From positions 400,965 to 464,964 of the forward strand of contig BLSF01000035.1 in assembly GCA_012862575.1 (NCBI GenBank): a DNA stretch of 64,000 nt. The letters run 5' to 3'. Source of the DNA: Parietichytrium sp. I65-24A. Its lineage: Eukaryota > Sar > Bigyra > Thraustochytrida > Thraustochytriidae. A model generated the notes under the pieces. That model did not search any database and had not been told where the DNA came from. It saw only the letters and a program-made list of their open reading frames with translations. A program made the translations under genes and the position numbers. The stretch's first letter is position 1. Each line of letters starts with the position of its first letter. Shown one piece after another: positions 23,864 through 51,985 of this stretch.

Positions 23864-25192
23864 TTAGAGCGAGTAGTCGCGAACTTTGGCTGCTGCACAG
23901 AACTCCTCTATCGCCCACGCGTTCACGCCTCGCTCGATCTTCACAGATCCGCCATCGCCCCAATTCTGGCCCCACGAGTTCCGCGCCAGCCAGTACTTGA
24001 CACCGTTCGCCTCCCCATAGCCGTAGAGCACAAGAGCGTGGCCTCCGCCGCTGAAGCTGGTGGTGTACTCTTCCCCGTCCATCTGCGGCCTTGCGACATA
24101 GCCTTTGGTGATGAGATCAGAGTAATCTCCCCAGAGGCTGGTCTTCTTGAGCGACCACGCGGGCCCGGAGCCGTCGTTCCGCTTGTAGTACGAGAGCCCG
24201 CAGAGTATTGGCCCGGCCTCAGTGATCTCCTTGAGCATCACTGACTCCCCTGCGATGTGTTTGATGTCGTAGGTCTCCAGCACGGGCTCGAGCGGCGAGC
24301 CATCCACGCACTCGGTGCGCGCGGACTCCTCGAGGCACTGCGTAGTGACAACACTTCCAGGGCAGGACAGGTAGCCGTCCGCTCGCGAAGCACCGCACTC
24401 TGTGTTGCAGTAGGGAGCGTCTCCAGCAAAGTAGGGCACACACGCAAGAGGTGGGACGCCCCTCTCCGCGAGTGTAAAAGCTGCCGTTTGGGAGTTGCCG
24501 TTGCACCTGCCAAAGCTCGTGCTCGTGCACTGTGTTTCGCCTTGGCTGCTGCCCCAGTCCTCGTCCAGGGAGAGGATGTACTGGGGACTCGCGAACCAGG
24601 TGGACACGTCGACGCCAGCGGGGCTGCACGCGGTTTCAGCTGGCGGCAGTTCGCGGTTTTGGTCGAGGAGAAGCTTGTGGTACCGCGCGGAGATGACAGT
24701 GGCACCCGCCACCGCCCAGCAAGAGCCGCATTGGCCCTGGTCGATCGGCGGTGGGAGCAGGGCGGCGAGGTCCAAGGAGCGCAAGTCATTGACCTGATAG
24801 CCAACGGGAAGCGAGTCCTCCACGGGGAGATCGTCGGCGCCGGACCAAGCTGGTGCGAGACCGAGCCGAAGCTCGAGGTTCTCGGCCGAGAAAGGGTGAT
24901 GCCTCACTCCCAGGACGACCAGGGCGACCGCCAATGCGAAGGAGACAAGCAAGAACGTCGCTTTGACGCGCCCGTGCACGTATGACCGAAGCACAGAAGC
25001 GACGGCGAAAACGAGGAGGAGAGCGCTCACGAGCAAGTAGAACCACCAGACACCAGAGGAGACCCGGATGGCGAACGCCTCGGTGGTGAAGAACCAGAAG
25101 CCGAGCGCGATGATGCCAGCCACGAGGCCAAGCAATAGCAACGTGGGTCCCAGTTCGCTCCTCGCGAATGCGATGGCACCCCCGCTCGGCAT
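23864..25192 (-). CDS. Membrane-anchored papain-family (C1) cysteine protease
   Basis: A 442-residue protein. Residues 1-100 hold three hydrophobic segments (about 15-35, 48-68, 78-96) instead of a usual signal peptide and propeptide. A full papain domain follows: the QGQCGSCW active site with catalytic Cys158, His385 in [12 protein letters not shown] and Asn405 in [16 protein letters not shown]. Many cysteines between 189 and 296 suggest disulfides, so the domain should lie on the luminal or outer side of a membrane. Papain-type proteases fused to membrane segments occur in protists and in large DNA viruses. It is the first gene of the unusual block that runs to about 52 kb. The ATG at 25192 is the only sensible start. 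Confidence 0.92.
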
Positions 25193-25448
25193 TCTCTCGC
25201 GCTCCTCCCCCTTGCTTCTCGGTGCTCTGTTAACAGGATTTCTTCACTCTCGTCCTTTCCTATCTCCTCCTCTCCTCTTTTCTTTTCTCTCTTTCCTTTT
25301 CTCTTTCCTCTTTCTTCTATTTTCTTTCTTCACTGGTTTCCTCTGTTTTTCCTCTGTTTTTCCTCTGGTCTCTGCCTCTGCAGCCTACCTCGCATTTTAA
25401 TTTTATTTTCCTTCTCTTCACACCTCGCTCGTGCTCTCGTTTGGCGAC
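25193..25448. other. Pyrimidine-rich spacer
   Basis: The plus strand is rich in TCT and TTTC runs between 25205 and 25380, so the minus-strand leader of the protease gene is purine-rich. The same kind of tract precedes the next gene at 26170-26230. No gene. Confidence 0.5.
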
Positions 25449-26161
25449 TCAGTGAGACAGCGACACCCACGCAGAGCTAGAGGATCTAGATGGATCGGCG
25501 AAGGACGCGCGACCGCCCTCGGTGGCGAGAGGGAAGGTCATCTTCCCGAACATGGACTTCTGCGGCCTAGAGCTGGGGTCCACCATGGTTGGAAACTCCT
25601 TGAGCGCAGCCTCCTGGTGCGGTGCAAAGTCTTGGTTCTCGAACATGGCGAGCCTGACCACGTCCGGACTCACCACGGCGCCGTTGATGTCCACAGGCCG
25701 GATCTGGCCGTCGCCCTTGGTCGCGAACTTGATGTCTGTAATGACTCCCTCGCCAGAAAGCACGCGCTTTCCAGTGCGCAGACTGACAGGACCGGTGCCC
25801 ATGTTTGCGAGCAGCGTGGCGCTGGACGCCGACGACCCCGAGGAGATTCCTGGCCCAAGGTTGGAGACAGGGACAGAGCTGACAGAGCTGACAGAGCTCC
25901 CAGAGCTGCCTGTGCTGCCTGTGCTGCCTGTGGTGCGCGCAGCGCTCGCATTCTCCACAGAAGCAGCAGTAGAGGTATCAGTGCCGTCTCCCGTGCCTCT
26001 CAGGATCACGAACGCAAAGGCAGAGAACACCGCGACGAACGCAATGCCAAGGACGAGGAGCGAATCGAGCGTTGCTCGCTCACGGGCAAGTATTCCCGAG
26101 GACTTGGAGGGAGCATTGCCTGGAATGCATTGCGCCTCGATCTGGCACTTGATGCTCTCAT
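25449..26161 (-). pseudogene. Single-pass membrane protein, paralogue of the 37.4-kb gene, apparently frameshifted near its start
   Basis: The main frame encodes a transmembrane segment (SLLVLGIAFVAVFSAFAFVI), a Ser/Gly/Thr-rich spacer and a conserved module ending VRLAMFENQDFAP. The protein at 37407-38018 has the same order, with VRLAMFENNNFAP. The frame is open up to 26243 but has no in-frame ATG. The only plausible ATG, at 26161, is in another frame that reads a basic leader and would need one single-base shift just before the membrane segment. This is therefore either an old gene with one disabling indel or a sequence error. Function unknown; the shared motif defines a two-member local family. 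Confidence 0.6.
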
Positions 26162-26504
26162 TGCCACACGCTTCCTTTTCTCCTTTTTCTCTTCTTCTTT
26201 TCTCTTTCTCTCTCTTGCTTACTTTACTTGATTTTCCCTCGTTCTATTCTCTCCCCGCTCCCCTGCACGTTTCTGCTTACTCTCTCCCACCACGCAGAGA
26301 TTTTTTCGTTTGAATGGGCTCGAAGTTTCTTACAGGATCGCCAGACCTCTTGACGAGAGAAAGTGGTCGAAAAAGTTGTCAGGTGGGAAAATTTCTCTCC
26401 TTCACTGCAGGAAGACAGCAACCAAATCCCGGACCGCCAACCAAAGAATCGGAAAAGAGAAAAGAGAGAGAGAGAGAGGAAGAAAGACTATACGCTTGGA
26501 GAGA

Positions 26505-27641
26505 ATGGCAATGAAGCGACAGGCACTTCTCGAGGCAAGCCTCAAGGCATTCAAGTCCTCGCTTGAGACGCACCCTCGTGGATACAATGCCCTGGCCGCT
26601 CTTCGCACTGCTCTGACCAAGCAGGAAGACATCAGCCCTGTGACCGTCAACAAGATCCGCATCGTGCAGCAGAAGATGGCCGAGTGCCTCGAGGATGGCA
26701 AGGTGACCCGCCGCCGCGTCCCTGGTACTGGGGAGCGCGTGACAGTGGAGGACACCTACAAGGACACTGCAGAGAACCGCAAGCACGGTCGCGTGGGCCA
26801 GGTGTACACGCGCACCGTCTACAAGGACGCGGTATACGTGGACCACAAGCAGCAGAAGATGCGTCGCAAGAAGGTCAAGCGCTCCGACGACGACAAGCTT
26901 GGCTTCACCAAGCCAGTGCGCCGCAACTTCTGGATCGAGGCAATGGCTCAGGCTAAGGAGAACCTTGGTGCACCGGCATTCGTGGTGGTGCGCAAGGAGG
27001 TGACCGACCCCGCTGACGAGGGCCAGGTGATCGGGCACAGAGTGTACAACGAGGCCTGCCGTATCGTGGATGAGCTTCGCGCACGCGCAGAGGATGCTAA
27101 ACAGGAGCACGAGGCGGAGTTCGAGATTCTGAAGGGTGTCTTCGACCCTGAGGTGGTGGACGCATTCGTGCAAGCTCGCAGCACCCGGGAGTTGAAGAAG
27201 CTGGTGTCGCGCCACGGGTCTGTGGTCCATGAGGCGGTCATGGCCATCAAGTCTGGCGGGGACTGGCAAGCCGCGGCCAAGGAGGCGGAGCTCGCGGACA
27301 GGCAGCGCACCGAGGAGCAGCAGAGGCGCGCGGCGGAGAAGGCCGAGGAGAAGGCTATGCTCCGTGCTGCGGCCAAAGAGGAAGCCAAAGAAGCCGCCCG
27401 CGCTGCAAGGGCTGCTAAGGCGGCGGAGGTGGCCCAGGCGAAAGAACTTGCCCGCGCAGCCAAGGCAGCGGCAGCGCTAGCAGCCAAGGCGGCGGCCAAG
27501 GCAGCGGCTAAGGCAGCGGCAGCGGCCGCGAAGAAGACGGCTCGTAGCAGCAGCAGCAGCAGCAGCACCGAGAAGGCCCACAAGCGCCCACGCAAGCGCG
27601 TGCGTATGGAGGAGCCACAACAGGAGCCACAGGCAGTTTAA
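26505..27641 (+). CDS. Basic, alanine-rich, probably DNA-binding nuclear or virion protein
   Basis: A 378-residue protein. Residues 1-100 are a compact alpha/beta-looking part. The centre has a basic patch (KMRRKKVKRSDDDK) followed by GFTKPVRRNFWIEAMAQAKE and LGAPAFVVV...VYNEACRIVDEL. A tryptophan, an LG-x-x-x-F stretch and a late tyrosine-helix in this order recall short modules common in large DNA viruses; that comparison is from memory. The last third is an Ala/Lys/Glu helix like the tail of histone H1, then a serine run and a nuclear-localisation-type KRPRKRVRM end. Codons are strongly GC-biased. No membrane segment. Probable role: chromatin or genome packing. Confidence 0.75.
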   Translation: MAMKRQALLEASLKAFKSSLETHPRGYNALAALRTALTKQEDISPVTVNKIRIVQQKMAECLEDGKVTRRRVPGTGERVTVEDTYKDTAENRKHGRVGQVYTRTVYKDAVYVDHKQQKMRRKKVKRSDDDKLGFTKPVRRNFWIEAMAQAKENLGAPAFVVVRKEVTDPADEGQVIGHRVYNEACRIVDELRARAEDAKQEHEAEFEILKGVFDPEVVDAFVQARSTRELKKLVSRHGSVVHEAVMAIKSGGDWQAAAKEAELADRQRTEEQQRRAAEKAEEKAMLRAAAKEEAKEAARAARAAKAAEVAQAKELARAAKAAAALAAKAAAKAAAKAAAAAAKKTARSSSSSSSTEKAHKRPRKRVRMEEPQQEPQAV

Positions 27642-27687
27642 AAACAAGTCGATCAATCGATTTTTATTTTTTATTTTTTGTAATTGT

Positions 27688-30424: not shown

Positions 30425-30608
30425 TTGGGCCTTTTTCAGCCTGTTGAGGTTGCTATATTGGAAACAGCCCTGGGAAAGCTGTTGGAAAAATGCGAACTGC
30501 TTCCCTTCGAAACTTCCTGGCACTCGAGGCTTAGGATAGGTTGTAGTTTAGTTTAGGATTTCGATAAATTATTCGAGAAAGAGAGGAAAAACGAATTTGC
30601 TTCATTTG
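30425..30608. other. Short convergent spacer
   Basis: 3' ends of the 29.8-kb gene and of the 30.6-kb remnant face each other here. Nothing else seen. Confidence 0.5.
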
Positions 30609-31208
30609 TTAGTTGGCTTCGCGAAAAACAACGAGCGCTACACGTAGTCCAGCATCATCATGGTCCCCCTCCTCCAGGTGGCGAAAGTATGCCACTGCCT
30701 CTCGAAGGTCATCAGCACGCATTCGCGGAAGCGAAAGCTCGTTCAGAATTTCTTCTAGCGTTTCGGGTCTCGCCGGACGAGATCTTCCAACCGCTCGGCA
30801 CCATGCTCCTCAAAGGGGTCCTATTGGCGCGAAGATGCTGAGGAGGCGCCAAGAGTGGCACTTTCAGTCCCTTCATGCCGCGGACGGCGTCGTTGCGCAT
30901 CGCCTCCCCGCCGCCGTAATTTGCGATGTGGCCGTCTTTCTCACACTCGTTGCTGTAAATAACAGACGTCACTGCCTCCAGAGCAGCAGCGAGTTGCAAG
31001 CTGTGATTCCATTTTTTAATTCGTTTCGCCACGAGTTCTTGTCCGTTTCGTAGAGCTATTAAAGACGGGTGCTCTCGATCTCATCGACTGGAGAGAATAC
31101 CTGGACCGGCCAGATCAGGACGAAGAAACCAAAGGCACACACGAAGCCTAGCGACCGAAGCACGATGGACAAGGAACGGCTATACACGAACGCAGCGAGC
31201 AAGAGCAT
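30609..31208 (-). pseudogene. Remnant of a membrane protein gene with several frameshifts
   Basis: Protein-like segments follow each other in order but in different frames. Two hydrophobic helices (VMLLLAAFVYSRS and LGFVCAFGFFVLIWPVQVF) end at a stop at 31059. A second frame continues with LRNGQELVAKRIKKWNHS and ECEKDGHIANYGGG. A third reads DPFEEHGAERLEDLVRRDP. A fourth ends ETLEEILNEL...EEGDHDDAGLRVALVVFREAN with a stop at 30609. At least three indels or one extra intron set would be needed to join them. The frame of the first part is open into the heptamer satellite at 31260-31416 and has no good start. Most likely a decayed gene of about 200 residues. Confidence 0.6.
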
Positions 31209-31259
31209 AACGAATCCCGTCGCCGCGACACACCCCCATGCGAACTCGTCTGGATTGCG

Positions 31260-31416
31260 AAGTTCTTGGTTCTTGGTTCTTGGTTCTTGTTTCTTGTTTC
31301 TTGGTTCTTGGTTCTTGGTTCTTGGTTCTTGGTTCTTGGTTCTTGTTTCTTGTTTCTTGTTTCTTGTTTCTTGGTTCTTGGTTCTTGGTTCTTGGTTCTT
31401 GGTTCTTGGTTCTTTG
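31260..31416. repeat. Heptanucleotide satellite (GGTTCTT)n with GTTTCTT variants
   Basis: About 22 units of seven bases. Variant units (GTTTCTT) sit in two clusters, which suggests internal duplication. The unit length makes all three plus-strand frames open and creates spurious GSWFLVL-type open frames. Confidence 0.95.
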
Positions 31417-31421
31417 GTTCT

Positions 31422-32002
31422 CTAGGAGTAGAGAAAAAGAAGAGTTCTTTTGCTCGTTGATAGGAGTCGTTAATTTAAGGCTAGGTTACATTGCCCTACA
31501 TAGTAGTCGTTACCTCCAACTAACCAGACGACTCCTACACTCATATAGCGCTAACTCACTAGATAACTACTAATATCTAGACACCAGTGCTATACCACAT
31601 CAGTTGTTTAGCCTATGGGGTCCCATTGTTTTGGTCTTAAGCTAATAGTGGTAGTAAGACTTATCCAACTTTTATCATGACGAGTCATGAAAGTCTTCTC
31701 TCAAAACCTCTAAGTTTTACGAACATTAGTGCATACTAAATAGTCAAAACAATAATGAAAGAGTAAAAGGTAACTGCTTAGGAGTAGGTAGGACAAATAT
31801 GACTACCTTAGCGGAAACCCTAAGAAAAGTCGTTTAGGGGTAACTGGTAATAATTATTAGCCATCCAAGACCTCGAGAACTTCGAAAGGCATAATTTTCT
31901 GTTCTGATGCTCCCAAGAAGCTCCCAAGAAGAGCTCATTGCTCGAGATGCTCGAGAACTCAATCGAGCTTCGCCCTGGACCTTTACCATTTTACTCGCCC
32001 AT
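31422..32002. other. Intergenic region, no gene supported
   Basis: AT-rich, with many stops in all frames. It marks the change from damaged genes on the left to intact genes on the right. Confidence 0.5.
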
Positions 32003-33172
32003 TCAAATCGAAAAGAAAATTTCAACTAAAATGCCCTCCGTAACAACGGGTCCTTCGTAACTTTCGTAACTTTCGTAACCCACAGTCGCGCCACCTCCAA
32101 AAAGCACAGAGACGAAGAGTTGTTCGTGACTTGCCCGGGAAAGTTGGCTTTGGAACGCTGATCTCGCGTTCACAACGGTCGCATTAGATTGTGCGTCGCA
32201 TTCGTGGCGCGGTGTCAGGTCGATCCACGACAGCACCGCAAGCTGGCCGTCGAAACACCCTGACGCCGAGTCAGTGCAGGTCGTGGCAGGCGAGTGCAGA
32301 AAGATCCTATCGAGCCAGACGCCGTCTTTTCTGACATTAGACGTGGCTTGCGCGTGGATGAAGACGTCGACGTAGCTCGGGGCGTCTTTGTACAGCTCCT
32401 CAAGCGATGAGTGGCGCGACCGAACTCGCACCCACTTCTGGGCAGGATTGACGAAGGCCCCTTGCCGCGGTGCTTCAGCACCCGGAAACGGGACAGCCCA
32501 CGACGGTTTAACTGGGCCCATGCCCACGCCTAGATCTCGATTCGGGCCGTCGAGGCTGTCGAGGCCGTTGAGGCCGCTGAAGAGCGACCTGGCGAGATGG
32601 TCAGCCGTGCCGGACTTTACCACGGTTATGCCGATCTGATGAGGGGAGACTGATATGAACGGCGGATCCTGGATCATGGCACGCACCAGAAACATCTCCA
32701 AGTCGACCCCATGGTGTTCGTTGAGTTCCAACAGCATGCACACAGTCCCAAGTCCGCTTATTTGATAGGAGTTTATCTGGTCCGAGAGGTGTGACTCTTC
32801 GTTCGCGATCACGCACAGCTCCTGGAGGGATTGCGGATTCGAGTCGATGAGCCGAAGCTTTAGAAAGTACGCATTGAATCCTTCAGGCGGTGCCAACTCC
32901 GTCCAATCGACATCGCCGGTGTCCGTGATCGTCGACGTTGGGGGAAACGCATGGGCGTACTCGACGCCATTTTCGTCTGCAAACTTTTCGATGTAGAGGA
33001 CTAGGCGGAGCCAGCAGTTGTTCCTGGTAGGCGATATGTTCTTCACCACGCCCTCGGGGAAGAATACACTGCCGAGCGCTACGCGGTTGATCTTGTGCGA
33101 GGGCACTGGGAGCTTCACTGAGAGAACTGAGGGACTGAACGGGTCAGCAGCGACCTTGACGACTTTGGCCAT
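32003..33172 (-). CDS. Unrecognised 389-residue protein, likely beta-rich
   Basis: Intact frame with ATG at 33172. No signal peptide or membrane helix. The sequence alternates short hydrophobic strands and loops (FSPSVLSVKLPVPS, CWLRLVLYIEKF, NAYFLKLRLIDSN, YVDVFIHAQATS, VWLDRIFLHSPA), which suggests one or two beta-sandwich domains. The C-terminus has a near repeat (YESYESYEG). It lies 69 bases downstream of the stop of the DD3-3-like gene on the same strand. A structural or surface role is possible; I recognise no family. Confidence 0.75.
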   Translation of the reverse strand: MAKVVKVAADPFSPSVLSVKLPVPSHKINRVALGSVFFPEGVVKNISPTRNNCWLRLVLYIEKFADENGVEYAHAFPPTSTITDTGDVDWTELAPPEGFNAYFLKLRLIDSNPQSLQELCVIANEESHLSDQINSYQISGLGTVCMLLELNEHHGVDLEMFLVRAMIQDPPFISVSPHQIGITVVKSGTADHLARSLFSGLNGLDSLDGPNRDLGVGMGPVKPSWAVPFPGAEAPRQGAFVNPAQKWVRVRSRHSSLEELYKDAPSYVDVFIHAQATSNVRKDGVWLDRIFLHSPATTCTDSASGCFDGQLAVLSWIDLTPRHECDAQSNATVVNARSAFQSQLSRASHEQLFVSVLFGGGATVGYESYESYEGPVVTEGILVEIFFSI

Positions 33173-33240
33173 CCCTGCGCAAGGAGGGAAATGATGAGAA
33201 AAAATAGAGAGATGTGATTTTTGGATGAATATGGCATGAT

Positions 33241-40377: not shown

Positions 40378-40558
40378 GGCGACCCTGGTGCGTCCCGGCC
40401 TAGATTACCACGTACTTCTTGGATAAAAAGGATCGGGAAAAAAAGTTTCTCACCGTCAGTAAACAATTTTTTTTCTCATGTATACTTAACGAGCGGGGTG
40501 GAAAGAACGGAACGAAAAGTTTGGAGAGAATACAAGTACTTCAAGAAGAACTACAAAG

Positions 40559-40735: not shown

Positions 40736-40835
40736 AGCTTTCGCTTTCTCGATCTCTCACTCTCTCGCTCCTTCTTTTTCATCAACACAAGTCGAAAATG
40801 TAAAACTGTGAAAGAATTTCTTTTCCACTTCTTAT

Positions 40836-41879: not shown

Positions 41880-41992
41880 TATATAGCAAACTAGTACATG
41901 TCTTAGCCTGATGCAGTCTCTATTCTATGGCGTTCATGTGAAAGAAGAAAATAAAATAAAATAAAAATGGCTCAAGGATGCTCAAGGTTAGT

Positions 41993-42631
41993 TTAGTAGG
42001 ACGACTCGTCCATCAACGAGTCTAACGGGGACCATCTCTCTCGGAACTTGGAGCTACTCTCGATGCTTGGAAAACTCTCTCCATCGATGAACTTGACGTC
42101 TTCAAACTTGCTGAGAACGGTCTTCATCAACGAGCGATCCACCGCGTCAAACCAGCATTGCTCCACGCTCACGTACTCTAGATTCGGATGCACAGCTCTT
42201 ACAATCTTCTCCATCATACTACCCCATCCGAGTGGGAAAATGCACCTTCTGAAAGTCAGTCCACTGACGCGGGTTTCAGGCGCATTCTCAAACGTCATTG
42301 CCAACACGAAAAGACTCCACGTGAACATGTGGGAAACGCCACATACAGTCACGTCCGTTTTCAACCCACGACAAGCCTGCATGATTTCTTGTGACTCGGG
42401 CAAAATTCCCTCGTCTATGTAAACGCAGACGCGCAGTGGCGTTGGCGTTGGTACAGAATCTGGCGCAGAATCTTTGCGCCCATCAGAGAGGACAGCTCTC
42501 AGCGCATGGGCATCACTGAGACCGAACAAATTGATATTCCCCAGGTATCCCAGAATCTCTACAATCAACTCACGTGGAAGTATAGGAGTTGTCTCATTTC
42601 TCTCCACACTCCAAGCCTTATTAGTATTCAT
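41993..42631 (-). CDS. F-box protein with leucine-rich-type tail
   Basis: A 212-residue protein. Residues about 17-50 match an F-box (LPRELIVEILGYLGNINLFG), which normally binds SKP1 in an SCF ubiquitin ligase. The rest shows irregular strand-helix units (TRVSGLTFRRCIFPLG, HPNLEYVSVEQCWF, FEDVKFIDGESFPS) like degenerate leucine-rich repeats that would recruit a substrate. ATG at 42631; the frame opens seven codons earlier without an ATG. With the RING and OTU genes nearby, it makes a third ubiquitin-pathway gene in 8 kb. Confidence 0.8.
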   Translation of the reverse strand: MNTNKAWSVERNETTPILPRELIVEILGYLGNINLFGLSDAHALRAVLSDGRKDSAPDSVPTPTPLRVCVYIDEGILPESQEIMQACRGLKTDVTVCGVSHMFTWSLFVLAMTFENAPETRVSGLTFRRCIFPLGWGSMMEKIVRAVHPNLEYVSVEQCWFDAVDRSLMKTVLSKFEDVKFIDGESFPSIESSSKFRERWSPLDSLMDESSY

Positions 42632-42809
42632 AGTAAGACTATTATACTCCAATCTTGAATTCGAGTAGGAGAGAAATTTTCAAAACTTTGAAAATTTGAA
42701 AATTTGAAAATACGAAAATACTTCAACAATGAACATTGAACAAAGGTTGATCTTGAGAGAATGGAAACAAAATTTCAATTCTAAGATTCTAATTTTGGCA
42801 GGTCAAGGC

Positions 42810-43097
42810 TCAATGCTTATGGTGTCCGGTTTGAGATTTGGATTTCTCTTCGTGATACATCTTGCCTAGAATCTTGGCGACCTCCACCATCGACGCGTTG
42901 GGATGCGCGCGCCTCACATTATCTCGGTGCTTGTTTGCAAACGTCATGTACGCATTTAACGTGCGTCTCTTCTTTGTCTTACTTGTTGATGATTTTGAGT
43001 GCCTGTGATTTCTTTTCCCATGAGAGCAATGTGCACCTTTACAACCACAACTTTTCCCCGCGTGAGTTGATTTGGAAGTTCTATGTCTTTTCGGCAT
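42810..43097 (-). CDS. Small HMG-box-like DNA-binding protein
   Basis: A 95-residue protein with a Lys/Ser/His-rich basic N-terminus that includes a CGCKGAHC cysteine patch. It is followed by one short HMG/YABBY-like box (LNAYMTFANKHRDNVRRAHP, then MVEVAKILGKMYHEE). Aromatic, proline and helix positions fit that fold, though the box is shorter than in animal HMG proteins. Short HMG or YABBY-like proteins are also common in large DNA viruses. Expected role: non-specific DNA bending or chromatin binding. Confidence 0.8.
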   Translation of the reverse strand: MPKRHRTSKSTHAGKSCGCKGAHCSHGKRNHRHSKSSTSKTKKRRTLNAYMTFANKHRDNVRRAHPNASMVEVAKILGKMYHEEKSKSQTGHHKH

Positions 43098-43166
43098 TCT
43101 TCAGCGTCTTGTCCTGTTCTCCCACGAAATGAACTGACCAGAAAAAAAATGGAACGAACAAATTCG

Positions 43167-44298
43167 TCATCCATTGGTGATAGCTAGAGGTGCACTCTTC
43201 AATGGTAGCAAAGCGTCGTAATGAGTTCTCCCGTTGTATCGCACGAAAACTGGCAAAGAGTCATCATGTCCTGGAGGAGCGCCATCCTCGGAATATTTAT
43301 TGGCATAATACGGCCGCGTATACTGAAGATTGAACGAGCCGTCCACCACGATCGACGTAATGTTGCGTTTTAGGACGCGGGCTATGTACGCCATCGCTTC
43401 ATCACCGCCCCATGCTCCTTCTCTCAGTTGGGAGTTAAGTTCTTTGCTAAACTGAGGGAACGATTCTGACAACTTAGGAGGGTAATGTCCGACAAATTTT
43501 TTGCTTGGAACTTTCCGAAATTTTCGCAATTCTCTCCTGAGTTGAACACCGTTAGCGACTTGAACCCTCTTGACGAAGTTCCCATCCGCGTCATGGAAAT
43601 CTAATGAGATCTTCTCATGTTTCTGGGTATGCGGATCTTTTCCTGAAATCGCTGCCACTATTGAGTGATACATACATGATCCGTCACCTTTAACTATCGC
43701 TAGTTTCATGCGAGATATGCCTTTCAGACGCTCGCGTATCTCAGGTTCGAGCTTGTATAATACAGATCTGGGTTTGTCTCTATCACCGGGGATGACGATT
43801 CGCAGTTCGTCTTCGGCTTCGGCTTCGTATTCGGGGTTGTCATTTTCGTTGGCGTTTTGTCCCCTCAACTTCGAGATCCAAATGTATGTAACAATCATGA
43901 AGGTTAAAGCAGCTATCGCGATGACAAAGGCTATTACGTTATTTCTCTCCACGATTGCTGGTTGATGTGCATCGATGTGAAAAAAAAAGTTAGCTGAGCT
44001 GGCAAAAGCGACACATGAGTGCAAAATGAATCGACTTACATGTATCTCCATTAACATCTTCGCTCGCACTCTTACTTTCGGCAGCGTTTGTAGAAGCGCG
44101 CATGGCATTGAAAATTCTCCACAGAAAATAGATTTCCAGCACTAAAACCACAGTGATGCTGAAGTCGACGAAGCGATGGACCCTCCCCGAGGCCTTTGCT
44201 TTTGCCTCGTCACTTCGGGAGTGTGGCGAGTGCGATTCCATGTTGGCTGAGGATCCATTCTCGTCTTTGTGCGATTGGACATTCGGCGCATGCATCAT
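43167..44298 (-). CDS. Membrane-anchored OTU-family deubiquitinase, two exons
   Basis: Exon 1 is 44040-44298 (86 codons plus one base, ends GEDT-type sequence VNGDT before GTAAGT). Exon 2 is 43167-43957 (after a CCAG acceptor). The intron is 82 nt and phase 1. The product has 349 residues with two hydrophobic segments (FSITVVLVLEIYFLWRIF and NNVIAFVIAIAALTFMIVTY), then a complete OTU domain: GDGSCMYHSI with catalytic Cys near 181, GAWGGDEAMAYIARVL, and a late His near 332 in RTHYDALL. It should remove ubiquitin from proteins at a membrane. Exon 2 alone gives no convincing N-terminus, which supports the splice. OTU proteases are frequent in both protists and large DNA viruses. Confidence 0.85.
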
Positions 44299-44551
44299 AT
44301 CACCCGCTTCGAATAAACTCTCGATTACTGAGCTCGACAAAGAAAATGAATGTAAACCTGCTCCTCAATTCAAATCGAAAAAAATTAGAACCAAGGAATG
44401 GAAATGCGGATGCGAGTTTTTTTTCTCCGAGCACGTTTCGTAAACAACAGCAGCCCCGGGTCACTCACTGGTTACGCTAAAGAAGATAAGATCCAACGCC
44501 CCGCAAGGTCTGGGAAAAGCAATTGGTAGCTCGCCAAATAGCATTCGTACA

Positions 44552-46558
44552 ATGCCGCCATCTTTGACGAACCTTATGGGTATCTACGTCCTAATCCGCG
44601 TCATCAGTGTGATGTCAACCAGCAGACCGGTGGGCAAGCTGCCGAACCATGCGGGCGTCCCGGCGCGTAAATCTGGCGGATCTGCGAAGCGAGCGAATGT
44701 CGTCGGCGACGAGTTACACGACACAAAAGACAGCGTCGAAGAAACTCTCGATACCATCAGATCGAATGCTGATGCTGTTGAGAAGAGCGGTATGTCACCA
44801 ACCAGGAAGCCACGTAGCTCGAGGCTTTCTCCGCGTGTGATCTCACTGATCCTCATGATCGCAATCTTCGTTGCAATCATCGTCTACTCCTTGTACATGA
44901 TGGATTGTCAGTCATGCGGACTAACCGATGGACTCACGGAGGGAGAATCTGATGAGAAGGCAGATACCAAGGAAGTCGCAGGAATCGATCAGGAGAGGTC
45001 TCGACTGGTTATTCGCGACCAAAGTGATCAGATCAACAAGCCCGATGACGGTGGAATCGTCTCCAGACTCACTCGCCTGCTGGTACCAGGTTGTATCCGA
45101 GATCTCTTTGCAATGCCGGTGGATTCCCCTTCCACAGCACCTGTGACATCGGCTCGCGGCCATGCAGCGCCTTCGGGAAACGGGCTGATTAAACCAGTCA
45201 GTCGCGAGAACTTTTTCGAGAGCGTGGGAATCAGTGATCTCGATGACGATGGCAAGTATCAGCTCGTCAAGTCGCTCAAGGAACGTGGCGTTCGCTTACT
45301 TGGCATCTCTCGCTGTATCTGGACGATGCGGCAGCGTGAGCTATTCGGAAGCCGCTCCAAGGCCCGGTTGCTTTTGGAGTCCGGCGTCTACACCGAGTGT
45401 GCCCCCGGCGACAAGATGTGCGAGGGCTTGCCAGGGTTCCCAGCGTGGCGGGTCGAATCGCCCGATAGGACGCTCGTGGGTTTCCAGAAGTTCAATCAGC
45501 TGGAAGAACTTTTGCGCGACATCGAGAGCGACATCGAGAGCGACGTTGAAAAGAAGGCTGACGGGGGTGATACCATTGAAGAGGAAAAAGATGATGAGCA
45601 TGATGATCATGATCATGATGAAAACAACGCCCGCGATGACGTCGACGACTGCAACGACGGTGAAGAGGAGTCTGTAGATGCCCCAGGTGGTGCTAAAGGA
45701 CAATCACACATGAGCATTGAGGACCGGTTCTGGGATGACATGAGCAGTAGGTTCATTGATTTCATGCAGAAGACAAATAGCAAGCTTGAGCGCCTTGACA
45801 AGCGCCTTGAGTCAATTGCGTCAACTGTCCCCGTCTCCTCGTTCGAAGAGAGCGTTCCAAAAACTGACGAGGACGCAGACGGCGTCGACGTGATCTCGGA
45901 TGCGCTGCGCCACTTAGCAATCTCCCTTCCACCGCCATCTGTCCCTAAAGTATATGGTGTTCATGCGTCTCCTGATGAGGCTCCTGAGCAAGTTCCCAGT
46001 GTCCCCGGTGTCGTCGTGGCCGATGTTGGCCCACTCCAGAGGAGCGAGGCAGTGAATGTCGAACCCTCTGGTACCGACACCACGGAAAACTCCCCAAAGC
46101 GCGCCAGGCGCTCCCGGGCAACACGGTCATCCCTCGCAACAAAATTGAAAGCACCCGGTGCGGAAGAGAGTGCATATGTAGAACCCATAGAATCACGTCC
46201 ACTTGACGTGAGCCAGCCAACTGAAATTGATGCTCCTGACGCCGGTACCGATGCCAGAATTGAAAAGATGAGAGGAGTTGAGACCCTTCCAACACGTCCG
46301 GGACCAGTCATGCATCCTGATCAGCTTTTGAATGGTGGCACCGTGACTGGATGGGCCTCGCAGACTTCGCAGACTTCACCGCAAACTGCTGCACAAGTTC
46401 TAGCGTACGAGAAGGCTTATGCAGCTGAGAGTGCGAATGCACCTGCTCCTCTCAAGCAGATGTTCGACGCCGAAGTAGCGAGGATGAACGCTTCAGACGG
46501 GGATCCAACATCGTCTGACCTTCGCGTTGCAAGTCTCCCATGGTCTCGTCGTGTGTAA
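44552..46558 (+). CDS. Large single-pass membrane protein with acidic and disordered regions
   Basis: Up to 668 residues; the ATG at 44612 (648 residues) is an equally good start. One membrane helix (VISLILMIAIFVAIIVYSLYMM) lies near residue 95-117. After it come charged and proline-rich segments, a structured middle (DDDGKYQLVKSLKERGVRLL, about 225-320), an Asp/Glu/His-rich run (DDEHDDHDHDENN, near 350) and a coiled-coil-like helix (FMQKTNSKLERLDKRLESIA, near 405-425). No family recognised. Divergent from the OTU gene, with about 250 bases between the starts. Confidence 0.75.
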   Translation: MPPSLTNLMGIYVLIRVISVMSTSRPVGKLPNHAGVPARKSGGSAKRANVVGDELHDTKDSVEETLDTIRSNADAVEKSGMSPTRKPRSSRLSPRVISLILMIAIFVAIIVYSLYMMDCQSCGLTDGLTEGESDEKADTKEVAGIDQERSRLVIRDQSDQINKPDDGGIVSRLTRLLVPGCIRDLFAMPVDSPSTAPVTSARGHAAPSGNGLIKPVSRENFFESVGISDLDDDGKYQLVKSLKERGVRLLGISRCIWTMRQRELFGSRSKARLLLESGVYTECAPGDKMCEGLPGFPAWRVESPDRTLVGFQKFNQLEELLRDIESDIESDVEKKADGGDTIEEEKDDEHDDHDHDENNARDDVDDCNDGEEESVDAPGGAKGQSHMSIEDRFWDDMSSRFIDFMQKTNSKLERLDKRLESIASTVPVSSFEESVPKTDEDADGVDVISDALRHLAISLPPPSVPKVYGVHASPDEAPEQVPSVPGVVVADVGPLQRSEAVNVEPSGTDTTENSPKRARRSRATRSSLATKLKAPGAEESAYVEPIESRPLDVSQPTEIDAPDAGTDARIEKMRGVETLPTRPGPVMHPDQLLNGGTVTGWASQTSQTSPQTAAQVLAYEKAYAAESANAPAPLKQMFDAEVARMNASDGDPTSSDLRVASLPWSRRV

Positions 46559-46854
46559 GCACGAGCGGCAAGAAAGAATGTGGTCTCTACACCTTCTTGT
46601 AAAACCGAACTACTTGAACCGAACTATCTCTATTCATACATGCCCAAATAACTTTTTTTTCCCCCGCTCCATCTCACCTGAAGCCATACAGGCACGTGCC
46701 TGAGAAATCGCTACATCTAACACGGACCATATTTCCCATCGCCGGGAGTAGGTGTCACACTTGGAGACTGGCATACTCACAGACCCCAAACGCTGTAAAG
46801 CACGCGCTGGTTTCCTCTCTTTTCACCTTTCACCGAGAGCATCGAGAGCATAAA

Positions 46855-48876
46855 ATGCGACCCACTAGCGACTCTGCTGACCAAGGCCGCGAACGTCGCG
46901 ATCCCGCAACGCCTATGTCACCTCGTCCGGTCGATCAGCGAGAGGCGGATACACTCAACGGGCTTTATGAGAACGTTGAAAACTTATGCGCTGCGTTCGA
47001 TTGTCCCATTGACCCTGACATGATCAAGCAGATGATCGAGCCATTCGCCGGAGGCAACTCTCTGCAAACCATCGCAGCACTCGCTTCTCAGGCGCTTGGC
47101 AAAGACATGTCTCGCGGTCGTAATGGTCATGCCAAAGCGTCATCGTCGCCATCGGGACAAGGGACAGACGCTGTGCATGAAGGCAATGTTACGAGACCTG
47201 GACTGAACCTCCATGCCATCACCGGCATGGAGGACATTCTGTGCATGCCGTTCGTACTTCTTTGCCTCTGTATCACTTTTCCATCAAGCATCTTAATCCG
47301 TTTGGCATCGCTCGTGATTTCCGGGAGCATATTCTGCTTCTGCGCGTTGCACCGATCCCAGCCCATCGCTGCCAAGTTGGTGATCTTCTATATGGACTAC
47401 TTGCGCAACCAAGTACTCGCTGCTGCGAGCGATGCACGAAAGGAAACTGCCCGTTCCATCAAAGACAATGCATCGCGCTTCTTGCATAGCGCATCCGACA
47501 CCATGTGGAACATGAAAGGGCTTTCTGGCTTCGATGTAGTTTCCATGAGAAACACGTTCGCAAATGTGAAAGACCAAATCGCACAACTCCGGGATGCATT
47601 TGCAAATATCAGCGTCGGAACGCATGGCAGCCTGCATAGCGGCCTGCCTGCTGGCCTGTCCGACGGCTCTTCAATCGGTTCTGTGATCGGCTCTAAGCTC
47701 GGAGCGATCCTGGGGTCTGCAATTGGCGCACTCTTCGGTCGATCGAGATACGTCCTGCAGACACACTTTATCGGTGGTCTCTTTTCCATTCTCACGAGCT
47801 TGTTCGCGTCCATCGAACGGGTGCTCTTTGTCACCGAATCAGACGCTCTAAAATTGCGTGTGACTATGCTACCAAGTAAGCGCGCTGTTCATGCATTTTC
47901 AATATCGTCATGGTTCCAAGGATCACATCTGTCCGAAAATTGGAGACTTCCATGGAGCGCATCCTGTGACCGCAGCGAAGAGTCTGACGACATCCGGCCT
48001 CCTCCTTTAGGAACGTTGACGGCCACAAAGGGGTTTCCCGATGACCAGGCGAGCTTTAATGCAACGTTTTTCGATAGCATCATTGGCTCCGTGTTGAAGG
48101 AGAATCTCCTACCCGAGCTGGTGATTCGCGACATTGTGCCGTACGAGACGCTTCGAGAGATGACCGAGGACCCGAGCTTTGAGTCCAGCGATCCTTTCAC
48201 CAACCCGATTATTGACGACCGTGTCAAAGACGACCGCGCCGAATATCGAGGCGGGAAGAAAGCGGGAAGTCCAATCGCGCTCGCCCTTGTTTCTGTCACA
48301 TCGCGTTCTCTATCACACGTCCATGTTGAACTTGCCCCGAATCCCCCCGAGGTCTTGCATGTCTTGGATCAAATGAGATACTTGTGTGGCGAACTCAGCG
48401 ACTGCTACTTCCTTCATTCTGACACGACCGGGTGCAATGCAGGTGCGAATGCGAATGTGAATGACCGATGCGACGCAAGCACTGACAAAACACGCGACAC
48501 TCTGCAGCCACTTGAGCCAGAAATCACCGAGCTCTCCGAAGGCCGGTTCGAAAAGCTTGTTGACGCAACAGAGATCGTTGTTCGGACCCTTCCGAACGCA
48601 ATCATGCTGACGACCAGGGTTGCAGACCGCGTTGCCACTAAGCGCGACCTCGTCGACCTCGCATACCTCTTTAGAAGCGTATGTCTGTCGTGCGATGCCC
48701 TGTGTAGCTCGGCGATCGTCCACAACACCGAACGCGTCAAAATGGACATCCGCTGGGGCACGAAGAGAATCGGCTACCATCGCACCACTCTTGTACTCGA
48801 CACCGACGGCGTCCATGCATCGGTAGACACGATCGCCAAATCAGCGCTCCTTCTGCGCCACGTCGAAGACTATTAA
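46855..48876 (+). CDS. Unrecognised 673-residue membrane protein
   Basis: ATG at 46855 was chosen because the 53 upstream codons show no pattern. A polar N-terminal third (AADTLNGLYENVENL-type helices) precedes a hydrophobic region near 125-180 (MPFVLLCLCITFPSSILIRL, LVISGSIFCFCAL) with two helices. A glycine/serine-rich stretch (SVIGSKLGAILGSAIGALFG) follows, and then a long soluble C-terminal half. It sits in line with the preceding and following genes on the plus strand (spacing about 296 and 113 bases). Function unknown. Confidence 0.72.
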   Translation: MRPTSDSADQGRERRDPATPMSPRPVDQREADTLNGLYENVENLCAAFDCPIDPDMIKQMIEPFAGGNSLQTIAALASQALGKDMSRGRNGHAKASSSPSGQGTDAVHEGNVTRPGLNLHAITGMEDILCMPFVLLCLCITFPSSILIRLASLVISGSIFCFCALHRSQPIAAKLVIFYMDYLRNQVLAAASDARKETARSIKDNASRFLHSASDTMWNMKGLSGFDVVSMRNTFANVKDQIAQLRDAFANISVGTHGSLHSGLPAGLSDGSSIGSVIGSKLGAILGSAIGALFGRSRYVLQTHFIGGLFSILTSLFASIERVLFVTESDALKLRVTMLPSKRAVHAFSISSWFQGSHLSENWRLPWSASCDRSEESDDIRPPPLGTLTATKGFPDDQASFNATFFDSIIGSVLKENLLPELVIRDIVPYETLREMTEDPSFESSDPFTNPIIDDRVKDDRAEYRGGKKAGSPIALALVSVTSRSLSHVHVELAPNPPEVLHVLDQMRYLCGELSDCYFLHSDTTGCNAGANANVNDRCDASTDKTRDTLQPLEPEITELSEGRFEKLVDATEIVVRTLPNAIMLTTRVADRVATKRDLVDLAYLFRSVCLSCDALCSSAIVHNTERVKMDIRWGTKRIGYHRTTLVLDTDGVHASVDTIAKSALLLRHVEDY

Positions 48877-48989
48877 ATTATCAGTGCATGTACGGACCAA
48901 CAAAATTGCAAGATCGAGTCTTGAGCGAATGACGCCGCTTCATTTTTTTTGTTTGTTTCTTCCTTGACTTCACAAATTCTATCGTGAGA

Positions 48990-49661
48990 ATGTTTGGTTA
49001 CGCGATCAACTTTCAATTGACAAAATCATTCTCCTTGAGGCACCCGTTCTCGCGTCTCCGTGTTCCGAACGAAGACATACATTTGAATGGCACACACAGC
49101 GTTGCACACGAAACTCGCGCGCACGATGCCGTTCGAACTGTACAACAAGACCAACAAGTAGAGCAACAAATGCCCAAAGCGCCGCTGGTAGAACACCTCG
49201 AAGAGGAAGAAGATGTTGAATGCTATCAAGATGTCCCTGCGCTACTAGACCTGTCAGATCTGCCAAAAACGTCTGCTGCGTCTGCTGCTGATGATTATGA
49301 AGATGAAGTCCGTGCCGTGTTGAAAGAGGATGAAACCGGGACAACACCTGAACTTAAAACTGTTCCCAATGCTGAAGATTCAAGCACCGCTGGGTCTGGG
49401 CTCTGGAGACGAGCACGTGTGTTCATATTTTCAATGAAGAGGCTACAAAAAGCGCGCAAGTTGAAAGAAAATGTGGCGCAAGGCGCTGGACGCGGTGGTG
49501 CGCAGGGAGCGAAACCAATCATGCCGAAGCCAGCGCCTCCTCCCAAAACCCCGGATAGCATGCCTGCTGCCCCAGTTACTTCGCCACAAACGCATGCACC
49601 TCGCCGGAGGTACAACCTGAGACGGACGCCCATGAAGCGCAACTACAAAAGCTTTTTCTAG
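48990..49661 (+). CDS. Unrecognised 223-residue protein with acidic centre and basic tail
   Basis: ATG at 48990. The centre is acidic (EEEEDVECYQD, DDYEDEVRAVLKEDE). The tail is Lys/Arg/Pro-rich and ends RRRYNLRRTPMKRNYKSFF. No membrane helix. The charge layout suggests a nucleic-acid- or chromatin-associated protein. No family recognised. Confidence 0.6.
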   Translation: MFGYAINFQLTKSFSLRHPFSRLRVPNEDIHLNGTHSVAHETRAHDAVRTVQQDQQVEQQMPKAPLVEHLEEEEDVECYQDVPALLDLSDLPKTSAASAADDYEDEVRAVLKEDETGTTPELKTVPNAEDSSTAGSGLWRRARVFIFSMKRLQKARKLKENVAQGAGRGGAQGAKPIMPKPAPPPKTPDSMPAAPVTSPQTHAPRRRYNLRRTPMKRNYKSFF

Positions 49662-49717
49662 ACATATGTAGTACAAACTGAGAAACACAGAGATAAATGG
49701 CGTAACCTACCACGGCC

Positions 49718-49828
49718 GCAATCTTCGTCATGATCTTCTATCTCGCCCGATCACCGGGATCGACGAAAGCAGTGGCAATACCTGATCAAACACAACCGCA
49801 ATTCGCGCAACCACAGCAATCGTCATAA
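49718..49828 (+). pseudogene. 3' remnant of a third copy of the tandem tail-anchored gene
   Basis: This stretch encodes only the end of the family: membrane-helix end and tail (VMIFYLARSPGS, IPDQTQPQ) and a stop at 49828. It matches the end of the next gene (VMIFYLVRSPGS, LPDQTQPQ) codon by codon, and its downstream sequence (TTTTTATCCGAG) matches that gene's 3' flank. The 5' part is missing. It shows that the 50.0/51.0-kb pair was once at least a triplet. Confidence 0.88.
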
Positions 49829-49957
49829 TTTTTATCCGAGTTATCTCAAACACGGGAGTTTGCATATACGCGTGTAACAATTTTCTTGACGAAGAATAAA
49901 GTTCCAGCATATCACTAAGGATCACACAAAAGTTGAACAATACAGCCTACACCCACA

Positions 49958-50836
49958 ATGGCTCGCCAATGTCACGATATCAGTGAATTTCCAAACAAGA
50001 CGTTCTACGATTCGGGGCGAACCGTTGAGTTTGCCATGCCTCGCGTGGTTTTATCCACTAATGAGTTCGCGGAGTTAATTTGCACCAACAAAGCCAACAT
50101 TCGTTCCGGCCTTCCGCGAACGGATGCGTCCATAGGTATAATTGTTAGCAGCACGCCGCCGCTTGAAGATGGCTTCAATAACCTCGCGAGTGTGTCAATC
50201 GTATCGAAGATTCAAATCAGCAGGGGCTCGAATTCACCTGTCTATGCGTATATTGTTGTCACGGATGCGTTCCATAACGTCTTGACATGGATTCCAATCA
50301 GTTATAGGCTTGGTGACACGAATAACAACGACGGGTTTGATAGTATAGATCTCAAGTCGACTGTCACTTCTGCTCGTGTCGATATTGAACAAACCTTTGA
50401 ACCGACAGGCAATCTACCTCTCAGCTCCGGGATCCTTCAAGGTTTGAAAGGCAAGAGACTTGGCGTTGCCTTTCTATTAGGGCCCAACGGGGGAACGGCG
50501 GTCTACGTCGATCCGTTCGTTTTAACACTCAGAAAACCAACGCCTGCATCAACGCCTGCATCAACGCCGGCTTCGGCTTCAACATCAAGACGTGTAGGCG
50601 ATGTCACGGGTGGAACGCAGACAGCGGCCAGCACTACAACATTGACATCGTCCATTCCCGCATTTTTGACCAATGACGACGGAAGCTGGAATTACACCAT
50701 GATCGCCATGCTAACTGTAGTCTTCCTGCTCATTTTTGTGATGATCTTCTATCTCGTCCGATCGCCGGGATCGAAGAAGTCAGTGGCACTACCGGATCAA
50801 ACACAGCCGCAAGTCGTGCAACCACCATCCCTGTAG
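49958..50836 (+). CDS. Tail-anchored beta-rich protein, tandem copy 1
   Basis: A 292-residue protein. Residues 1-190 look like a beta-sandwich (CHDISEFPNKTFYDSGRTVE, then SVSIVSKIQISRGSNSPVYA). A short Thr/Pro/Ser spacer with three TPAS-type units follows, then WNYT, a membrane helix (IAMLTVVFLLIFVMIFYLV) and a basic tail. No signal peptide, so the beta part probably faces the cytosol or a virion/vesicle surface. The next gene is a close paralogue (strong identity over the beta part). ATG at 49958 is preceded by an ACAGCCT-CCACA leader also found before copy 2. No outside homologue recognised. Confidence 0.82.
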   Translation: MARQCHDISEFPNKTFYDSGRTVEFAMPRVVLSTNEFAELICTNKANIRSGLPRTDASIGIIVSSTPPLEDGFNNLASVSIVSKIQISRGSNSPVYAYIVVTDAFHNVLTWIPISYRLGDTNNNDGFDSIDLKSTVTSARVDIEQTFEPTGNLPLSSGILQGLKGKRLGVAFLLGPNGGTAVYVDPFVLTLRKPTPASTPASTPASASTSRRVGDVTGGTQTAASTTTLTSSIPAFLTNDDGSWNYTMIAMLTVVFLLIFVMIFYLVRSPGSKKSVALPDQTQPQVVQPPSL

Positions 50837-50956
50837 TTTTTATCCAAGCTGTATCAAATACTTGAGCATTCACATTCGCATTCACATTCAAATTCACGTC
50901 AGTGTCGAATAGAGTTGTGGAATTGCATTTGTAATAACACACAGCCTGTGTCCACA

Positions 50957-51985
50957 ATGGCCCCCCAATGTCGCGATATCAGCGAATTTCCAACGCAAAA
51001 GTTCCAAGACTCGGGACGAACCCTGGAATATATCGTGCCTCCAGTGTTTCTTTCCTTTGGTGATTTCGCGGAGCCGACTTGCTCCAACAAAGCCCATATC
51101 CGCACCGATCTCCCACGAACGGATGTGTCAACCGGTCTAATTCTTAATAGCACGCCGCCGATTGACGATGCTTTCAATAAACTCGACAGTGTGACAATAA
51201 TTTCGAAAATGCGCACCTTAAATGGCTCGGATACACCTGTCTATTTGTATATTGTCATCACGGACGCGTCCCACAATGTCTTGACATGGATTCCAATCAG
51301 CTATAGGCTTGGTCACACGAATAACCAAAATGTGTATGATAGTCTTGATCTCAGGTCGGTGATCACTCCTACCCGCGTCGATATTGCACAAACCTTTGAA
51401 CCAACGGGCAACATAACTCTCCGCTCCGGGATCCTTCAAGGTTTGAAAGGTAAGAGATTTGGTGTTGCATATCTGATGGGGCCTACACAAGGCACATTTG
51501 TCTCCGTCGATTGGTTCGTTCTATCACTCACAAAAGCACAGGCGACGCCCACACCCACACCCACACCCACACCCACGACACCAGTCGTGACTAGCTCTCC
51601 GACACCGACGCCAACTCCGACGCCAGCTCCAACTCCGACGCCAACGCCAACGCCGGTGGTTTCCTCGAAGCCTGTCGTGACCATCCGCCCGACCCTTCCG
51701 GTCGTCACGACCAGTCCGTCATCGCCATTTCCAACGCCAACGCCGACCCCGGCCGTCACTATTAGACCGTCATCGCCGTCCGTGATTTCCTCAAAGGCTG
51801 CGGGCACCAACTCGACCGTTTCTCCATCTCCAAAATCAGCTACAGAGATCTCAAGCTTCCATCAGTATTTCGTCACTGCGAACGGCGATTACAACTATTC
51901 CCATGTCGCCATCGCTGCATTGGCCCTTGTGTTGAGCCTTCTCGCTCTCGCCCTCGTAATCAAACGATTGAGAGAGCGAGCTTGA
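50957..51985 (+). CDS. Tail-anchored beta-rich protein, tandem copy 2
   Basis: A 342-residue paralogue of the preceding gene with the same layout: beta-rich part (CRDISEFPTQKFQDSGRTLE), spacer, YNYS, a membrane helix (VAIAALALVLSLLALALVI) and a basic end. It differs by a much longer spacer built of PT dipeptides (PTPTPTPT) and VVT/SSP units at about 200-300. This spacer comes from a minisatellite in the DNA (51541-51660 and 51735-51760). The two copies keep the beta part and the order of elements while the spacer changed quickly, so the beta part is probably under selection. ATG at 50957. Confidence 0.82.
   Translation: MAPQCRDISEFPTQKFQDSGRTLEYIVPPVFLSFGDFAEPTCSNKAHIRTDLPRTDVSTGLILNSTPPIDDAFNKLDSVTIISKMRTLNGSDTPVYLYIVITDASHNVLTWIPISYRLGHTNNQNVYDSLDLRSVITPTRVDIAQTFEPTGNITLRSGILQGLKGKRFGVAYLMGPTQGTFVSVDWFVLSLTKAQATPTPTPTPTPTTPVVTSSPTPTPTPTPAPTPTPTPTPVVSSKPVVTIRPTLPVVTTSPSSPFPTPTPTPAVTIRPSSPSVISSKAAGTNSTVSPSPKSATEISSFHQYFVTANGDYNYSHVAIAALALVLSLLALALVIKRLRERA

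Follow-up and report, generated by a model that had tools for sequence, protein, structure and literature searches.

We analyzed a 64,000-nucleotide stretch of contig BLSF01000035.1 from Parietichytrium sp. I65-24A (hereafter, the window; all positions refer to it). A dense block of genes on both strands occupies about 20 kb at 32,003–51,985. We call this block the island, and its features are as follows.

32,003–51,985: the island proper, with dense genes and raised CpG
32,003–33,172, minus strand: 389-aa protein of no known family, with a broken partial copy on contig C169
33,241–36,045, minus: DD3-3-type protein with one hydrophobic anchor (Kyte–Doolittle; paralogues), 934 aa from the ATG at 36,045
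36,414–37,142, minus: RING-like protein, 242 aa (zf-RING_5)
37,407–38,018, plus: 203-aa single-anchor protein (Kyte–Doolittle; no Pfam family), from an internal ATG of a 258-aa ORF starting at 37,242
38,094–38,933, minus: two-exon membrane protein, 243 aa, intron 38,673–38,780 (108 bp)
39,154–39,516, plus: 120-aa protein with two hydrophobic segments (Kyte–Doolittle; no family above cut-off)
39,680–40,377, minus: TM2-domain protein (E = 1.5e-11), 3' end uncertain, predicted intron 39,849–40,106 (258 bp)
40,559–40,735, plus: 58-aa very basic Arg/His-rich peptide, protamine-like in sequence
40,836–41,879, minus: 347-aa protein, no Pfam family
41,993–42,631, minus: 212-aa protein, F-box unsupported by Pfam
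42,810–43,097, minus: HMG-box protein, 95 aa, basic N-terminus
43,167–44,298, minus: membrane-anchored OTU-like protein, two exons, intron 43,958–44,039 (82 bp)
44,552–46,558, plus: 668-aa single-anchor protein (Kyte–Doolittle), with a broken copy on C68
46,855–48,876, plus: 673-aa protein with two hydrophobic segments (Kyte–Doolittle), with pieces on C41, C155 and C7
48,990–49,661, plus: 223-aa protein, no Pfam family
49,697–49,816, plus: leftover tail end of a third jelly-roll gene copy, 65% identical to residues 251–290 of the 292-aa protein
49,958–50,836, plus: 292-aa protein, predicted jelly roll (structure model) and C-terminal anchor
50,957–51,985, plus: 342-aa tandem paralogue of the 292-aa protein, 53% identity

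The original prediction of dense packing on both strands was borne out for this interval: it contains 12 ATG-initiated ORFs of at least 200 aa (Markov simulations, n = 30: mean 0.30, maximum 2), 83% of its bases are coding with the exons chosen, and greedy ORF coverage was 0.79 versus 0.41–0.65 in five 20-kb flank pieces. The predicted abundance of small membrane-anchored proteins also held, with hydrophobic segments, some borderline, in 12 of the 20 ORFs over 22.6–52.0 kb and in 10 of the 14 ORFs at 32–52 kb (Kyte–Doolittle scans). Rfam gave no match over 22–54 kb up to E = 0.1, and PHROGs gave one weak match (E = 0.0021) to a family without an assigned function.

Among the protein identities proposed earlier, the HMG-like protein was recovered clearly (HMG_box, E = 8.2e-10), whereas RING (zf-RING_5, E = 7.3e-5) and OTU (E = 6.4e-4) found matches that lie under the Pfam cut-off. 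The F-box identity of the 212-aa protein was rejected, as Pfam gave no match up to E = 5. The DD3-3-like protein (983 aa if counted from the first ATG at 36,192) has paralogues in the genome, but Pfam gave no family and the name is carried over from the original prediction. The TM2-domain protein has two hydrophobic segments by Kyte–Doolittle. The AF2 model of the 389-aa protein was unusable (pLDDT 34), and the best PDB match of the 668-aa protein reached only E = 0.028. The 292-aa protein was modeled as a single jelly roll; together with the 342-aa gene and the tail of the third copy, it accounts for the local paralogues noted before.

Jelly-roll proteins, here predicted from a model, and a block size falling within the 14–40 kb reported for Polinton-like viruses of protists (PMC12220804, in part) would fit a whole or nearly whole Polinton-like virus about 20 kb long. 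Against this, no gene carries a Walker-A motif on its own frame, as an FtsK/HerA-type packaging ATPase would, and the block's sole Walker-A-like match falls within a 62-aa frame that runs antisense to a gene. Moreover, no terminal repeats were found in the stretches compared, and polymerase, integrase and capsid were not recognized in Pfam scans of the block ORFs. We regard a Polinton-like virus as very improbable. With respect to the double jelly-roll major capsid of such viruses, the 292-aa protein gave a model with a single jelly roll, and the model of the 389-aa protein was unusable.

Three genes were predicted to have spliceosomal introns, and we found three plausible GT–AG introns (108, 258 and 82 bp), of which the first two are top-ranked models and the last, in the OTU gene, was picked by eye with four other models ranking higher. 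These introns favor another explanation, namely a lineage-specific host gene cluster, close to a contig end, that encodes fast-evolving membrane and secreted proteins and was duplicated and partly pseudogenized like other unstable families. The RING, OTU, HMG and TM2 domains are common among eukaryotes, and they count for the same explanation. However, introns are a weak objection to a viral origin, because the VLTF3 gene of this genome (see below) itself carries three, as judged by eye.

Base composition was compared with host controls comprising one 100-kb flank and the 64-kb window itself. CpG observed/expected was 1.09–1.20 in all four 5-kb island bins versus 0.88–1.04 in 20 flank bins, and it was raised (1.06–1.27) in every 2-kb window of 32–52 kb, with a step at both ends. 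The mean for the 14 island CDS was 1.13 versus 0.99 for 31 host ORFs (p = 1.3e-5), and 6 of the 14 exceeded the host maximum of 1.15, although CpG was also raised outside the island at 15–17 kb (1.13–1.15) and 54–56 kb (1.08–1.10). Codon usage lay about 2.8 sd from host subsets, yet within their maximum. For codon usage, CpG, the paralogue comparison and the coding fraction, the DD3-3 gene start was set at 36,051 (two codons beyond the ATG at 36,045). In the proposed k-mer comparison with the flanks, three of five island tetranucleotide bins exceeded the flank maximum, but bins outside the island did so too. Thus, the expectation of a layout unlike both flanks was upheld by CpG and coding density and only marginally by codon usage; in the first two respects, composition and gene organization are distinct from the host flanks, as for an endogenous viral element. 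Codon usage close to the host's is what a host cluster would have, whereas the CpG step at both ends and the dense gene packing argue against such a cluster.

The original limits, 23,864–51,985, stood for approximately 32.0–52.0 kb but not for the left third (23.9–31 kb), where CpG is flank-like (0.89–1.01 in 2-kb windows starting at 23–30 kb). The predicted papain protein is present (Pfam, E = 1.7e-21), but its gene lies in this 23–30 kb part, outside the CpG block, as does that of a 378-aa basic protein. Both were rejected as island members and left out because their CpG is flank-like. Yet their codon usage deviated more than any other (0.119, against a mean of 0.058 and a maximum of 0.098 across 500 host subsets), and the 24–29 kb tetranucleotide bin was the most distant from the flank; the two genes may represent an insertion of their own. 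For the 378-aa protein, the genome gave no paralogue at E = 0.01 and IMG/VR no relative.

Pieces of four island genes occur on five other contigs, and four of the five copies are broken. The 389-aa gene copy on C169 is 92% identical and has a stop and a frameshift; on C68, pieces of the 668-aa and 342-aa genes are fused, with one stop and the intervening 4.5 kb missing; and pieces of the 673-aa gene lie on C41 (two stops), C7 (five stops) and C155 (48 residues, open). That the copies are gene pieces, once with two genes fused across the missing 4.5 kb, speaks against a host cluster, whereas an LRR-like array, present in the window too, adjoins the copies on C155 and C169 and speaks for it. Intact DD3-3 paralogues also favor a host cluster: the island protein is 40–49% identical to six complete paralogues, although on a long branch, and its gene has a CpG of 1.20 versus 0.84–1.03 in those six. 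Stop-containing DD3-3 pieces on C47, C49 and C69 may derive from host paralogues. The dN/dS was 0.27 (0.18–0.38) between the 668-aa gene and its broken copy and 0.47 (0.33–0.67) within the jelly-roll pair (292-aa versus 342-aa), and dS against two broken copies was 0.08 and 0.56. Values of dN/dS below 1 show that selection acted on the proteins. They do not establish domestication, because the constraint may date from when the genes were viral, as it probably does.

Elsewhere, the genome contains nucleocytovirus (NCLDV) genes. C116 carries an intact 446-aa capsid ORF (PF16903, E = 2.1e-27; 0 of 14 controls) that matches 11 solved capsid sequences and is adjoined by a resolvase and DUF5760. C148 carries a VLTF3 gene (E = 1.5e-12; 0 of 14 controls) whose coding parts are split by three GT–AG introns. 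The genome thus has both an NCLDV capsid and a VLTF3 gene, as expected for one with a giant endogenous viral element (GEVE) of the Nucleocytoviricota, and their presence weighs against a host cluster; on the whole of the evidence given here, we consider that explanation unlikely. The nine ORFs of the capsid locus had a mean CpG of 1.08 (p = 0.011), two of them, including the DUF5760 gene, falling below 0.95; their codon usage was not distinct (about 1.1 sd from host subsets). Partial copies of this locus occur on other contigs, some of which may be repeats. An A32-type packaging ATPase (PF04665) was not found in the genome at E = 0.1, at which intron-split or decayed copies could escape.

As originally observed, the block showed no recognizable capsid, packaging ATPase or polymerase (Pfam scans, Walker-A check); Pfam scans of the island ORFs, the sole search for D5 and PolB, found none of the hallmarks capsid, VLTF3, A32, D5 and PolB. 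On no contig did we see island pieces together with pieces of C116 or with hallmarks, apart from one 40-bp C116 match on C35 at 59,167–59,206, and by eye we saw no promoter motif common to island and C116 genes. IMG/VR held no relative for four island queries, though it likewise held none for the C116 capsid or its neighbor; with the 378-aa query included, all eight scans were negative. Because the island has no hallmark and no contig joins the two, the 40-bp match aside, its kinship with NCLDVs and its place in the Nucleocytoviricota are inferred.

The large-DNA-virus origin originally proposed is indirectly supported by the CpG step, the broken gene copies, and the capsid and VLTF3 genes, and is weakened by an island without a hallmark. 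We conclude that the 32.0–52.0 kb block is probably an endogenous large-DNA-virus fragment in a protist nuclear genome, with a nucleocytovirus as its likeliest source. The source could instead be a different nuclear large DNA virus, for example a mirusvirus-like one, with virion genes already intron-bearing before insertion: mirusviruses have many introns, enriched in virion genes, with one chromosomal integrant known (PMC12768974, in part), and a thraustochytrid harbors an integrated mirusvirus in one of its subtelomeric regions (PMC12911909, in part). This source appears improbable, as the capsid gene of the genome is of NCLDV type.

Under the nucleocytovirus reading, a single kind of virus would have supplied both the block and the C116 and C148 genes, and related viruses may have inserted more than once. 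The island genes could represent a late or virion module, in which the C-terminally anchored jelly-roll proteins would be virion surface proteins and the other membrane-anchored proteins would belong to the same module. The very basic peptide and the HMG-box protein could condense DNA, and the membrane-tethered OTU-like and the RING-like proteins could act on ubiquitin. The introns may have arisen once the genes were inserted, or they may have arrived with a virus that had a nuclear phase. More tentatively, the block might be the virion module of an undescribed intron-bearing large DNA virus lineage, whose repeated insertion left one intact and several broken modules, and some intact genes may serve the host. 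If so, an orphan-rich virion module that marker-gene searches would overlook could be recognized without a hallmark gene, through CpG and a trail of broken copies. The copies of unequal divergence (dS of 0.08 and 0.56) would then reflect recurrent infections of a single protist, and the VLTF3 gene with its introns would bear on whether viral genes gain introns before or after insertion.

Compared with Polinton-like viruses, the block is of similar size (PMC12220804, in part), but no packaging ATPase motif, terminal repeats or capsid were recognized in it. Similar to the Aurantiochytrium limacinum mirusvirus integrant (parts of PMC12911909 and PMC12768974), it would represent a large DNA virus in a protist chromosome with introns in viral genes, whereas the capsid gene in the present genome is NCLDV-type. 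Nucleocytoviricota GEVEs are known in Phytophthora parasitica (PMC8204020), Amoebidium (PMC11244446) and Euglena gracilis (PMC12455990), with introns noted in some GEVE genes in the last of these reports. Although a 20-kb block of mostly orphan membrane proteins, without a hallmark and indirectly linked to the NCLDV contigs, is unlike these GEVEs, the present genome resembles them in having viral genes within a protist genome, broken and duplicated copies, and both capsid and VLTF3.

The dense 20-kb gene block at window positions 32,003–51,985 (hereafter the island) is probably a piece of a large DNA virus of the nucleocytovirus (NCLDV) kind that became endogenous; it has intact genes, and broken copies lie elsewhere in the genome. 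A viral origin is likely, as the original prediction of a candidate domesticated virus island had it, while the domestication part gained no support; we infer the NCLDV membership. The window is the terminal 64 kb of contig C35 (464,964 bp) in a 42.5-Mb genome of 172 contigs.

The CpG observed/expected ratio was the sharpest marker of the island limits, at 1.09–1.20 across 32–52 kb (four 5-kb bins) versus 0.88–1.04 in the flank (mean 0.97, sd 0.04; twenty 5-kb bins). In 2-kb windows, a plateau of 1.06–1.27 spanned those starting at 31,001 to 51,001, with 0.96 just before and 0.82 just after it. The left limit originally placed at 23.9 kb was not borne out by CpG, the ratio at 22–32 kb being 0.95. 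Per gene, the 14 island CDS averaged 1.13 versus 0.99 for 31 host ORFs (p = 1.3e-5), and 6 of the 14 surpassed the host maximum of 1.15. Counting against this marker, CpG was also raised outside the island, at 15–17 kb (1.13–1.15) and 54–56 kb (1.08–1.10). The composition of the island differed from the flanks in the CpG step at 32–52 kb, but its codon usage, about 2.8 sd from host subsets, was within the subsets' maximum; a single flank and the window itself supplied the controls. At 23864–27641, the genes for papain and the 378-aa basic protein had flank-like CpG, the most deviant codon usage (outside 500 of 500 host subsets) and the most deviant tetranucleotide bin; we left them out of the island, and they may be a separate insert.

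The features around the island were as follows.
52166–53890: foldback-like element directly at the island's right edge; a 75-bp repeat forms two mutually inverted arrays (554 bp, 85%)
30558–31102: repeated element of about 540 bp, with two further copies on C98 and another on C170 at 78–86% identity
15604–17589: 179-bp LRR-like tandem array, also on contig pieces L033 (1–761) and L034 (2239–2893)
5805–5880, minus strand: SNORD24 snoRNA (Rfam, above gathering score)
1690–1851 and 5251–5412: direct repeat pair, at the start of an SLC12-like gene and just past that gene
58632–58785 and 62167–62320: direct repeat pair
Both direct-repeat pairs in the flanks are 154–162 bp long with 92–93% identity. 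Positions 20253–21070 read N (818 bases).

The genes originally described were present in the ORF list of the window. Pfam matches confirmed the papain domain (1.7e-21) and HMG box (8.2e-10) and added a TM2 domain (1.5e-11); those for RING (7.3e-5) and OTU (6.4e-4) were sub-threshold, and the proposed F-box lacked Pfam support. In a simple hydropathy scan with borderline cases counted, hydrophobic segments occurred in 12 of 20 ORFs at 22.6–52.0 kb, in agreement with the reported small membrane proteins, and in 10 of 14 within 32–52 kb. Plausible GT-AG introns occur in three genes, in line with the number originally given: the 38-kb gene (108 bp) and the TM2 gene (258 bp), each by the top-ranked model, and the OTU gene (82 bp), where the model was picked by eye with four others ranking higher. 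The coding share of the island was 83% with exons chosen by us.

Searches with island DNA and three island proteins detected partial copies of island genes on other contigs. The C169 copy of the 389-aa gene is 92% identical, with one stop and one frameshift. C68 carries a fused copy, in which part of the 668-aa gene runs directly into part of the 342-aa gene; the intervening 4.5 kb is absent, and there is an internal stop. Three contigs hold pieces of the 673-aa gene: the one on C41 has 2 stops, the one on C7 has 5, and the one on C155 is open over its 48 residues. The 179-bp LRR-like repeat also adjoins the pieces on C169 and C155, at contig start and end. DD3-3 pieces with stops on C47, C69 and C49 could derive from host paralogues, and three further DNA matches (C35, C62 and C22) were only 50–56 bp each. 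The dN/dS was 0.27 (bootstrap 0.18–0.38; dS 0.56) for the 668-aa gene against its broken C68 copy, 0.47 (0.33–0.67; dS 0.48) for the tandem jelly-roll pair (292 and 342 aa), and 0.47 (0.20–1.01; dS 0.08), not separable from 1, between the 389-aa gene and the C169 copy. By these sequence comparisons, the island proteins are real and were constrained over much of the copies' separation. The pattern is compatible with copies that diverged in circulating viruses and were later inserted and decayed; pseudogenised host duplicates could also have produced it.

Beside the likely viral origin of the island stand NCLDV genes elsewhere in the genome. The NCLDV capsid model matched a single site (C116:55,654–56,310, E = 2.1e-27) and none of 14 control genomes. 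The capsid ORF is intact (446 aa; minus strand, positions 4808–6148 of L029, C116:50238–60237), and 11 solved capsids match it in sequence, at best with E = 7e-36. The ORF is adjoined by a resolvase (6.6e-16), which we take to be IS607-like, and a DUF5760 protein (3.5e-7), a domain not found beyond C116 in the genome at E 0.1 and matched in 1 of 14 controls, below the cut-off. By itself, this region qualifies as a viral locus. Its nine ORFs had a mean CpG of 1.08 (p = 0.011; 2 of 9 below 0.95), with codon usage not distinguished from host. VLTF3 matched on C148 (0 of 14 controls), where three GT-AG-ended stretches, seen by eye, split the coding parts (L030, about 1–1750), and the stop reported within the best match sits at an intron end; a second match on C65 was weak (E = 0.095), and A32 had no match in the genome at E 0.1. 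C116 and the start of C148 share a resolvase-bearing 1.1-kb stretch at 99% identity, which may reflect one mobile element on both or kinship. Parts of the C116 locus recur on further contigs, and some of these may be repeats. Because no contig was found to bear pieces of both the island and the C116 locus, the exception being 40 bp of the window (59,167–59,206) that match C116, we infer their link.

IMG/VR returned relatives for none of eight scans; since the capsid and its neighbour were among these queries, this indicates only that no close relative turned up in that collection. Published reports describe comparable systems. NCLDV core genes have been surveyed across eukaryotic genomes (PMC5294986), and in Phytophthora parasitica an NCLDV insertion that includes a capsid gene lies broken up in the genome (PMC8204020). 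Nucleocytoviruses are described as intron-poor, decaying endogenous elements being among the listed exceptions, and mirusviruses as intron-rich, with introns enriched in virion genes (PMC12768974). Intron invasion has been noted in some genes of giant endogenous viral elements (GEVEs; PMC12455990), the majority of genes in the many GEVEs of Amoebidium are without introns (PMC11244446), and a thraustochytrid carries a mirusvirus in a subtelomeric region (PMC12911909).
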